NCBI RefSeq assembly: GCF_009938225.1
Contig: NZ_AP019657.1
Location: 2,170,001-2,234,000 of the forward strand
DNA: 64,000 nucleotides
DNA from: Vibrio ponticus
GTDB lineage: Bacteria; Pseudomonadota; Gammaproteobacteria; Enterobacterales; Vibrionaceae
Direction of reading: 5' to 3'
This document shows positions 17,412-35,606 of this stretch, piece after piece. The notes beneath the pieces are model-generated. The model was not told the DNA's origin. It saw nothing but the letters and a program-made list of their open reading frames with translations, and did not search any database. How positions within the stretch are numbered: position 1 is the stretch's first letter; every line of letters starts with the position of its first letter. Position numbers and translations under genes: made by a program.

Positions 17412-17597
17412 TTTAAAATCCTCTATGGGGTTAGGCCTCCACATCCCCCATGATTCCGACTAAGCTTCTGCTCAGCACCCCGGAATATGTGTCGGAATGT
17501 GTGTGATTTAAAGATAAATGTTTAGTGGAACTCGCGAGCTTCGCCGACTTCACAAAGAAACCGAAGAGAACAGACGATGATTCCGGCGCGCTTTATA
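17412..17597 (-). promoter_or_regulatory. rpsB leader region (candidate S2-binding leader) with a -10-like box
   Basis: The sequence before rpsB can form a long hairpin from ATTCCGAC/GTCGGAAT arms (about 17450-17500), with CCGGGGTGC near its top, followed by CCCC/GGGG-rich segments close to the ribosome binding site. Autogenous control of rpsB-tsf by S2 through a conserved leader is established in gammaproteobacteria, and this looks like that element. A TATAAA box at 17592-17597 with a GC-rich discriminator downstream (GCGCGCC) may be the promoter, as in growth-rate-controlled genes; I could not place a convincing -35. Confidence 0.5.
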
Positions 17598-33558: not shown

Positions 33559-34848
33559 TTAGGCAATTAAGTATTTGATGATAAAGATAGCAGATAGTAC
33601 CCACACGCTGATTGAAACATCACGACCTTTACCGCTAAGTAGCTTAATTGCGGCATAAGAAATAAAGCCAAGAGCAATACCTTCAGCAATTGAGTAAGTC
33701 AGTGGCATCAACAAGCATGTCACAACAACCGGTGCCGCTTCAGTTAGGTCACGCCAATCAACGCTGACCAAACCAGACATCATTAAGATCGCTACGTAGA
33801 ACAATGCACCTGCTGTCGCGTACGCTGGAATCATGCCTGCCAGTGGAGCGAAGAACAGAGCCAATAAGAACAATAGACCAACAACAACAGCCGTTAGACC
33901 AGTACGACCACCAGCGGCAACCCCTGCCGTTGACTCAACAAAAGAAGTGGTGCTTGAAGTACCAAGTACCGCACCTACCGAAGTTGCAGTAGAGTCAGCC
34001 AATAGTGCTTTGCTTAAACGTGGCAGCTTACCATCTTCTTTAATCAGGTTAGCTTTTGTTGCTACACCAACGAGTGTGCCAGCAGTGTCAAACAGATCAA
34101 CAAATAGAAAGGCAAACACTACCGAAATCATACCCACTTCAAATACATCAGCGATGTTCATTTGCATCAGTGTCGGTGCAATACTTGGTGGCGCAGACAT
34201 TAGACCGCCCCATTGCACATCACCAACGACAATACCAATCGCCGTAATAATTAGGATCGCGATCATCACCGCACCGCGGACACCGCGATAAACTAAGCCG
34301 ATAGTCAGGAAGAAACCAAGAGCTGCTAGCGCTGGTTTAAGACTGGTAATATCGCCACGGCTGACTAATGTTGCTGGGTTATCAACCACGATACCTGCAT
34401 TTTGCAAACCGATAAATGCCAGGAAAAGACCGATACCCGCAGAAATGCCGGTACGAAGAGAAAGTGGGATAGAGTTGATAATCCATTCACGCACTTTGAA
34501 GATACTCAAAGCCATAAATAAGATACCAGAAACAAACACAGCACCTAGGGCAACTTGCCAGGTGTGACCCATACCTAACACAACGCCGTAGGTAAAGAAC
34601 GCATTCAAGCCCATACCAGGTGCTAAAGCGATTGGGTAGTTAGCCACTAAACCCATAATAAAACAGCCAATAGCAGCCGCTAAACAGGTCGCGACAAACA
34701 CTGCACCTTTATCCATACCCGCATCAGCTAGCATCGCTGGGTTAACAAAGATGATGTAAGCCATGGTTAAAAAGGTGGTTAAACCTGCGATAATTTCCGT
34801 TTTGACAGTGGTGCCATTTTCACTGAGCTTAAACAGTTTCTCGAACAT
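33559..34848 (-). CDS. NCS2 family purine permease (adenine/guanine/hypoxanthine type)
   Basis: This 429-residue inner-membrane transporter belongs to the AzgA-like branch of nucleobase:cation symporters. It opens LFKLSENGTTVKTEIIAGLTTFLTMAYIIFVNPAML, and shows APGMGLNAFFTYGVV near 80, GIGLFLAFIGLQNAGIV near 140, DLFDTAGTLVGVATKA near 250 and SSTTSFVESTAGVAAGGRTGLTA near 295. About 14 membrane segments are expected. A perfect PurR operator in its leader and the neighbouring gpt point to purine uptake and salvage. The exact base cannot be told from sequence. Confidence 0.9.
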   Translation of the reverse strand: MFEKLFKLSENGTTVKTEIIAGLTTFLTMAYIIFVNPAMLADAGMDKGAVFVATCLAAAIGCFIMGLVANYPIALAPGMGLNAFFTYGVVLGMGHTWQVALGAVFVSGILFMALSIFKVREWIINSIPLSLRTGISAGIGLFLAFIGLQNAGIVVDNPATLVSRGDITSLKPALAALGFFLTIGLVYRGVRGAVMIAILIITAIGIVVGDVQWGGLMSAPPSIAPTLMQMNIADVFEVGMISVVFAFLFVDLFDTAGTLVGVATKANLIKEDGKLPRLSKALLADSTATSVGAVLGTSSTTSFVESTAGVAAGGRTGLTAVVVGLLFLLALFFAPLAGMIPAYATAGALFYVAILMMSGLVSVDWRDLTEAAPVVVTCLLMPLTYSIAEGIALGFISYAAIKLLSGKGRDVSISVWVLSAIFIIKYLIA

Positions 34849-34906: not shown

Positions 34907-35211
34907 AAGTTATCAAATAGCAAATTCCAGATAGAATTATCACTCTAATTAATATTTTTCTTCCAAGAAGTTATCCTCTAGCAGACACATTGACCATTAA
35001 ATTACTTTTTAGTCATATTTTTCAATAACTAAACTCGAAAAAACTAGTGACGGTAATTTGGTGACAATTCGTACCATGTACTAAACTTTCAAGCGAAAAA
35101 TAGTCATTAGCGATAAAAAATGCCGCTATATCCTGCATGGACGAGGAGGATTTGGCTTCAGAATGGTAATTTAAAGAGACACAAACTTATGGTTTGTTGC
35201 TTTTGCGGGAT

Positions 35212-35240
35212 AAAAAAACGCCACTCAAGATGAGTGGCGG
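35212..35240 (-). terminator. Intrinsic terminator of a leftward small transcript
   Basis: On the minus strand the perfect 8-bp stem CGCCACTC/GAGTGGCG with a 5-nt loop is followed by seven T residues. No annotated-size gene lies upstream of it on this strand before pepD, so it must end a short transcript that starts within 35241-35560. Confidence 0.9.
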
Positions 35241-35323
35241 TTGAATCATGTTCAGCTAAAACTGCAGCTGTAAAAAAATTCCAATAATAGGGGTGAACAA
35301 ACTGTTCAGAAACAAGCTAAAAC

Positions 35324-35410
35324 CTAGTAGCCAAAGCTTGTTGGGTATACAAAGTTACTTGTATAAACAGAGCTGTTTATCCAGAACATTGCACTTGGTA
35401 AACCTTTCAT
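35324..35410 (-). CDS. Small ORF (28 aa) inside the candidate small RNA
   Basis: The ORF starts at the ATG at 35410 (MKGLPSAMFWINSSVYTS) and ends with a TAG at 35324; the last residues are NFVYPTSFGY. AAAGGTGAT lies about 5-8 bases before the ATG, a proper Shine-Dalgarno site. The peptide is rich in aromatic and Ser/Thr residues, lacks acidic residues and is too short for a clear membrane helix. I recognise no family. The lone promoter, start site and terminator around it support real expression. VcdP of V. cholerae, 29 residues, is the nearest kind of precedent. Confidence 0.5.
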   Translation of the reverse strand: MKGLPSAMFWINSSVYTSNFVYPTSFGY

Positions 35411-35527
35411 GCTATCACCTTTAAATCAATGCAAATAAAACAAAACGTTGATTTCTCGGTTCCTTGGAGGCGATAAATCGGACTCATCCTTTGAGCGTTT
35501 TTTCTTCAACTCGTGAAGTTGGTAGTA

Positions 35528-35606
35528 AATATACCTCAAAGAAAATTAATTACAAGCTCTGGTGTGATAAAAGTCTCAAAAAAAATCAAAATTTGATCTA
35601 TATCAA
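35528..35606 (-). promoter_or_regulatory. Promoter with CRP-like and FNR-like sites upstream of the small RNA
   Basis: Beyond the -35/-10 pair, TGTGATAAAAGTCTCA (35563-35578) matches the CRP consensus TGTGA-N6-TCACA with one mismatch. TTGATCTATATCAA (35593-35606) fits the FNR consensus TTGAT-N4-ATCAA perfectly and also resembles a CRP site with one change per half. Both lie just upstream of the small RNA promoter and about 265-310 bp before pepD, so they could serve either direction. The rest of 35607-35872 has no clear pepD promoter. Confidence 0.5.

Follow-up and report, generated by a model that had tools for sequence, protein, structure and literature searches.

The vcdRP locus of Vibrio ponticus and a conserved structured leader that may control VcdP translation

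Introduction

The closest described relative of the locus presented here is vcdRP of Vibrio cholerae, according to the main text of PMC8672173 a 306-nt RNA encoded on the negative strand between vc2278 and vc2279, with the VcdP open reading frame (ORF) at 104-193 and a seed at 223-232 having four cytosines at its distal end. As further described there, vcdRP is repressed by CRP via a site upstream of the -35 element, and its RNA associates with Hfq and is processed by RNase E into pieces, of which the 3' ones retain pairing activity. VcdRP pairs with ptsG, treB, nagE and ptsHI, VcdP binds hexameric GltA and activates citrate synthase, and a vcdP stop codon destabilises the full-length RNA (PMC8672173, main text). 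The base-pairing sequence and the ORF are both stated to be conserved in all species tested. SgrST of E. coli is like VcdRP, as far as it is described in the same text, in that a small ORF precedes a 3' segment whose pairing reduces PTS synthesis, but differs in the action of the peptide and in transcriptional control (PMC8672173).

Two mRNAs controlled by CsrA also bear on the present locus. CsrA recognises GGA in loops (PMC11633198, PMC7492729); in V. cholerae it depends on a linked pair of such motifs and increases the translation of toxR (PMC11633198), and in ymdA one CsrA site lies in a hairpin that sequesters the Shine-Dalgarno (SD) sequence, with another just upstream (PMC7492729).

Results and Discussion

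Identity and layout of the locus

In the window, by which we mean the whole 64,000-nt stretch of V. ponticus DNA that was analysed, a minus-strand RNA is predicted in the gap that separates the gene of an NCS2 permease (33559-34848) from pepD (35873 onwards), and the same two genes stand beside vcdRP in the relatives G424 and G471. We take vc2278 and vc2279 to be the NCS2 permease and pepD genes. An earlier note, made from the sequence alone, had described here an intrinsic terminator, a 28-codon ORF with a ribosome binding site and a structured 3' segment with CCCC, all of which we found again (Table 1). The promoter that it gave as CTTGTA-17-TATATT stands in the same place, although the best reading is TTGTAA with a 16-nt spacer, one base over.

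Table 1. Predicted and observed features of the vcdRP locus of V. ponticus, with positions in the window.
Feature	Position	Strand	Remarks
CRP-like site TGAGA-N6-TCACA, putative	35578-35563	-	centre about -50 from the predicted start; sequence only
Promoter TTGTAA-16-TATATT	35528..35555	-	-35 at 35555-35550, -10 at 35533-35528; sequence
vcdRP transcript	35520-35212	-	309 nt; predicted start 7 nt after TATATT, as in G424
Leader helix P1, CTTCA/TGAAG	35504..35518	-	5/5 pairs change on both sides (100 distinct rows)
Leader helix P2, GCTCA-AAGGA-TGAGT	35482..35496	-	3/5 pairs with two-sided change; pairing in 98.8% of cells
ANGGA motif 1	35491-35487	-	loop of P2
SD hairpin, predicted	35414..35474	-	ATCGCCT (35474-35468) can pair with AGGTGAT (35420-35414)
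Near-invariant block CGCCTCCANGGAACYGAG	35455..35472	-	165 leaders compared
ANGGA motif 2	35465-35461	-	within near-invariant block, predicted internal loop
Inner helix P4	35454-35448 (AAATCAA) and 35429-35423 (TTGATTT)	-	6/7 pairs change on both sides
Shine-Dalgarno AGGTGAT	35420-35414	-	three bases 5' of ATG
vcdP, 28 codons, MKGLPSAMFWINSSVYTSNFVYPTSFGY	35324..35410	-	ORF list, conservation, coding constraint
Hairpin GAACA/TGTTC	35295..35307	-	directly 5' of the seed; sequence and folding
CCCC seed of VcdR	35290..35293	-	RNA position 228-231; sequence and published seed
Intrinsic terminator	35212..35239	-	stem 35239-35219, T run 35218-35212; sequence

That note had also likened the RNA to dual-function VcdRP, with an orthology that it could not demonstrate and that comparison of relatives now supports. 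For the relatives, the start codon was placed at the published +104 and the remaining positions were read from there, whereupon G424, a V. cholerae-like relative with an assembly of 4.1 Mb in two contigs, gave a stop at 193, CCCC at 229-232 and a T run ending at 306, which are the published values, and G471 gave a stop at 193, CCCC at 231 and an end at 309. The V. ponticus ORF spans +111 to +197 of the RNA. Compared with the main-text description of V. cholerae vcdRP, the synteny, strand, promoter, CRP-like site, element order, peptide, CCCC seed and terminator are alike, while the RNA has 309 rather than 306 nt and VcdP has 28 rather than 29 codons, starting at +111 rather than +104 (PMC8672173). 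Since the published spacing is reproduced, in G424 exactly, together with the same synteny and element order, orthology is well supported and it is nearly certain that this already known locus is the vcdRP of V. ponticus, from which we infer its transcription and function; what the locus as such adds is one more species for a regulator already known.

Promoter-like sites numbered 6 against 5.5 expected over both strands of 2.5 kb, so that the promoter alone is not above chance, and terminator-like sites numbered 5 against 2.0; because of the chance-level promoter count, the case for the locus rests on comparison, with conservation deciding. The vcdRP copies of the relatives carry the same promoter elements upstream. 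The putative CRP site lies upstream of the -35 element and agrees at 9 of 10 positions with TGTGA-N6-TCACA, the CRP consensus. By orthology with V. cholerae, CRP-cAMP would repress vcdRP, and the RNA would be made when sugars are abundant.

In an Rfam scan of the 64,000-nt window no family matched the vcdRP locus at gathering score, and a relaxed scan of 35190-35600 gave seven weak matches, all within 35203-35365 on either strand and far below gathering, none of which overlaps the leader. Phages held no vcdRP DNA, and the exact leader pattern was absent from viral contigs. The sole gathering-score match in the window was t44 RNA (17430-17523, minus strand).

The VcdP peptide and the VcdR pairing part

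An intact ORF of 27-31 codons was present in 151 of the 152 same-genus leader loci read. Codon-level conservation, a check that the earlier note had proposed, was borne out: over 83 distinct 28-codon ORFs pN/pS was 0.38 in frame, whereas the alternative frames gave 1.24 and 0.84 (1500 sampled pairs for each of these two), and most of the variation in the vcdP alignment falls at third codon positions. Frameshifts and stop codons across Vibrio, which had been named as what would speak against the ORF, were not found where the leader is present, except in the broken gene of G499, but 29 same-genus loci have no ORF. The C-terminal end of VcdP mostly resembles F-x-YP-x-x-FGY, and the V. ponticus peptide matched the VcdP profile at E 6e-21, this profile having been built with the peptide included. 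The V. ponticus genome encodes the citrate synthase TIGR01798 (794 bits), having a Phe at 384 with Met counted, which, by a numbering that leaves out the Met, is presumably the published F383 of GltA. By orthology, VcdP would activate citrate synthase, as demonstrated by others in V. cholerae.

CCCC was found within 140 nt past the stop codon in 150 of the 152 same-genus leader loci, with three cytosines in G473, one of the two exceptions. Through this seed the 3' half of the RNA would, again by orthology, pair with PTS mRNAs and thereby slow sugar uptake. In pairing predictions the treB start region reached -23.3 kcal/mol and so surpassed every one of 43 background starts, for which the best value was -22.0 and the median -11.7 kcal/mol, and that of ptsH reached -18.1 kcal/mol, with three of the 43 being better; for ptsG (-14.8) and the best guess for nagE (-10.6 kcal/mol) there was no seed-dependent site in the stretch examined. 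With a longer stretch and a changed seed, treB still gave -19.6 and ptsH -16.0, a loss of only 2-4 kcal/mol. These models give no more than partial support to the predicted pairing of VcdR with treB and ptsH in V. ponticus. Five loci (L079, L080, L081, L090 and L091) carry CCCC once more, in the loop of a hairpin that precedes the terminator, possibly a doubled seed.

A structured leader upstream of vcdP

The leader, which went unmentioned in the earlier note, was the best-conserved stretch of the vcdRP transcript in our alignments. We compared 165 leaders (130 distinct strings): 152 same-genus, two from genus g18, nine of the Moritella group (of 11 matches) and two of the Plesiomonas group; 150 of the 156 leader genomes from the genus scan were read, the six omitted being mostly weaker, and two were added from the order scan. 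The block CGCCUCCANGGAACYGAG had 16 of its 18 positions unchanged in 163 of the 165 leaders, in a search whose pattern already fixes much of the block and missed none of the 165. The two exceptions were G200, with a 1-nt deletion, and G499, with a G-to-A change that was the only one beyond N and Y in the 164 full-length blocks, where N was A in 121, T in 21, G in 18 and C in four, and Y was C in 133, T in 30 and A in one. The invariance of the block is claimed for these 165 loci only.

Covariation was assessed in 100 distinct rows, where 14 of 25 pairs changed on both sides and 94.0% of the cells could pair, in an alignment that had been fitted to the structure so that the pair counts lean in its favour. 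The covariation score was 0.227, compared with 0.085 in shuffled alignments, none of 500 of which reached it, and with no more than 0.058 after sliding. Helices P1, P2 and P4 covary, and the helix of ATCGCCT with the Shine-Dalgarno shows no two-sided change (0 of 8 pairs; 93.5% of cells paired). The V. ponticus sequence AGGTGAT is TGGTGAT in an 11-locus same-genus clade that includes G424, which breaks one pair of this helix. A CGATTT/AAATC pairing suggested by single folds was dropped, as several relatives, compared by eye, do not keep it. We consider it highly probable that the leader forms a genuine structured element and that it serves the ORF.

The leader contains two copies of ANGGA, the recognition core of CsrA. 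Motif 1 is kept in 150 of the 152 same-genus leaders and in each of the 13 from outside the genus, the two deviating same-genus leaders having GAGGA or TTGGA with the ORF intact. The conservation of the block goes beyond what ANGGA requires, which counts against a pure CsrA reading, and a ligand-sensing riboswitch would fit this excess as well as the covarying helices round a near-invariant internal loop next to the strand that pairs with the Shine-Dalgarno; it would also fit the Rfam result, where the one gathering-score match lies elsewhere and no relaxed match falls on the leader. However, the freest position of the block is exactly the N of ANGGA, the motif is present twice, and all leaders read precede vcdP, whereas riboswitches often serve several genes, so that we regard a riboswitch as distinctly unlikely.

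Leader and ORF as one unit, VcdR as another

A covariance model run on 394 genomes of the order found the leader in 43, confined to its own family and to f2 (Moritella, three contigs) and f11 (Plesiomonas, one contig). The leader model matched 156 of 196 same-genus genomes, and a second leader model matched 247 of 329 family genomes, spread over 9 of 13 genera, the matches being mostly weak in the seven of these genera from which no leaders were compared here. In a class sample of 369 genomes the leader was found in its own genome alone, apart from one match at E 0.009 that was taken as chance.

Among the 40 same-genus genomes without the leader, 38 were matched, some of them weakly, by a model built on the 3' half (E no higher than 0.1). 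We read the best 30 VcdR matches of these 40 genomes and removed one that was not syntenic (L207); eight further genomes had weaker, unread matches and two reduced genomes had no match. All 29 loci retained adjoin pepD, 23 of them also with the NCS2 gene within the flanks examined, and CCCC is kept in 27. A VcdP-like frame at E<1e-3 was found in none of the 29 (best 0.036) but in 7 of 7 positive controls. On the leaderless genomes the leader model gave three weak matches (E 0.024 to 0.18), at loci with decayed remnants. L182, L185 and L186, without an intact leader, still show traces of P2 and of the beginning of vcdP (AAAGGTTTACCCAGTGG) and seem to be loci caught mid-decay.

The one leader without an intact ORF among the 152, that of G499, has an early stop together with its motif-2 change and retains CCCC. 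In G427, the second of the two leader loci that do not have CCCC within 140 nt of the stop, leader and ORF occur twice in tandem, followed by one VcdR with its seed (L222, about 1345-2040). Two leader matches each were also noted in G981 and G1002 in the family scan. From these patterns of sequence, leader and ORF behave as a single unit, from which VcdR is separate. In a tree of pepD with 110 rows, of which 79 have both parts and 29 only VcdR, the other two being G499 and Plesiomonas, the change between these states takes eight steps, a rough number from a quick, single-gene tree, with well-supported branches forcing at least three; because Moritella and Plesiomonas carry the leader, we infer these changes to be losses.

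The leader might instead be kept for RNA stability, RNase E processing or Hfq loading rather than for control of translation, as could be suggested by the RNase E processing, the Hfq binding and the stop-codon effect on the full-length RNA in the main text on V. cholerae; but the pairing activity stays with the 3' pieces (PMC8672173) and 29 syntenic VcdR loci manage without a leader, making this improbable in our view.

The nine Moritella-group loci have leader and peptide with a terminator soon past the stop, and CCCC within 140 nt after the stop was absent in all nine. The VcdR model scored 17-24 bits there (E 0.006 to 0.21), compared with 79-108 bits in four positives, which may reflect a degenerate VcdR remnant. 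Neither pepD nor the NCS2 gene was found in the flanks examined for five of these loci (L054, L055, L215, L217 and L218). In Plesiomonas pepD adjoins the leader; the two Plesiomonas-group loci have TTCATCCCTA with three cytosines, and the VcdR model gave 20.3 bits in one and no match in the other. We see about even odds that vcdP and its leader form an older, self-contained module of an undescribed class of cis RNA switch, operated by CsrA or sensing a ligand, with VcdR being separable and often outliving it, and, on the same reading, that this module is common to Vibrionaceae, Moritella and Plesiomonas. If so, dual-function RNAs could be assembled from modules with separate controls and taken apart again. 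The natural series of losses indicates that peptide and base-pairing RNA can part, and the wider sampling, with partings both ways (VcdR without ORF, and leader and ORF without seed), qualifies the main-text statement on conservation of both parts (PMC8672173).

CsrA as the proposed input

The leader has two linked GGA motifs, one in a hairpin loop (motif 1) and one in a predicted internal loop (motif 2). This arrangement, with motif 1 in P2 and motif 2 above the SD helix, is the layout of the ymdA leader, and CsrA control is proposed for that reason; the likeness, of two GGA sites in an SD-pairing hairpin and just upstream, is one of site layout, with CsrA binding of the vcdP leader being putative (PMC7492729). 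The toxR 5' UTR resembles the proposal in that Vibrio CsrA acts positively via paired GGA motifs, but has five (G)GGA motifs rather than two ANGGA (PMC11633198).

In the proposed mechanism the leader would serve translational control of VcdP, with a CsrA dimer bridging the two motifs, the first in the loop of P2 and the second next to the strand that can pair with the SD. We give this explanation as a whole, a vcdRP orthologue with a leader through which CsrA governs how VcdP is translated, a probability of roughly 0.6. Direct control of the leader by CsrA stands at about one chance in two. Activation of VcdP translation upon CsrA binding, as in E. coli ymdA, would be the likeliest direction, and a CsrA control that activates is offered, by that analogy, as a rather doubtful part of the proposal.

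CsrA was found in 16 of 17 chosen genomes, the one without a match being 75% complete; since the chosen genomes include leaderless ones, this presence does not discriminate. The two ANGGA motifs per RNA could also make the leader a trans sponge of CsrA, as CsrB and McaS are, giving the transcript a third function; yet two sites are few for a sponge, and the VcdR loci without the ORF are also without the leader, so we hold this to be very improbable.

A switch that exposes the Shine-Dalgarno was further considered by folding. With the motif-2 hairpin forced, the Shine-Dalgarno became more than 0.6 unpaired in just 1 of 117 distinct same-genus leaders, in none of the two g18 and eight Moritella-group leaders and in one of the two from the Plesiomonas group. 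When the upstream part of the V. ponticus leader was shuffled, 10-17 of 60 shuffled sequences hid the Shine-Dalgarno equally well or better, and over eight leaders at three lengths this number ranged from 0 to 54 of 60, so that a hidden Shine-Dalgarno is nothing unusual. Release of the Shine-Dalgarno by simple folding was thus left unsupported, and because of these two results the effect of CsrA could go in either direction.

Neither CsrA nor the leader occurs in the main text of PMC8672173, although according to its legend the alignment in Fig. 1C spans promoter regions and marks the terminator, so that the conservation of the leader is visible there. We found no description of a leader with covarying helices and a near-invariant block in the openly available journal literature on VcdRP, VcdP and Vcr082, including PMC8672173 and PMC9960880. 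VcdRP and CsrA came together merely in a passing mention and a reference title, and the main text of PMC7858070 contains no Vcr, vc2278 or vc2279. The leader would add a testable second, post-transcriptional input, probably CsrA, to a peptide that steers citrate synthase.

A perfect TTGAT-N4-ATCAA palindrome, which is the FNR-box consensus, lies on the minus strand at 35593-35606, about 80 bases upstream of the predicted vcdRP start, with imperfect forms seen by eye in some relatives.
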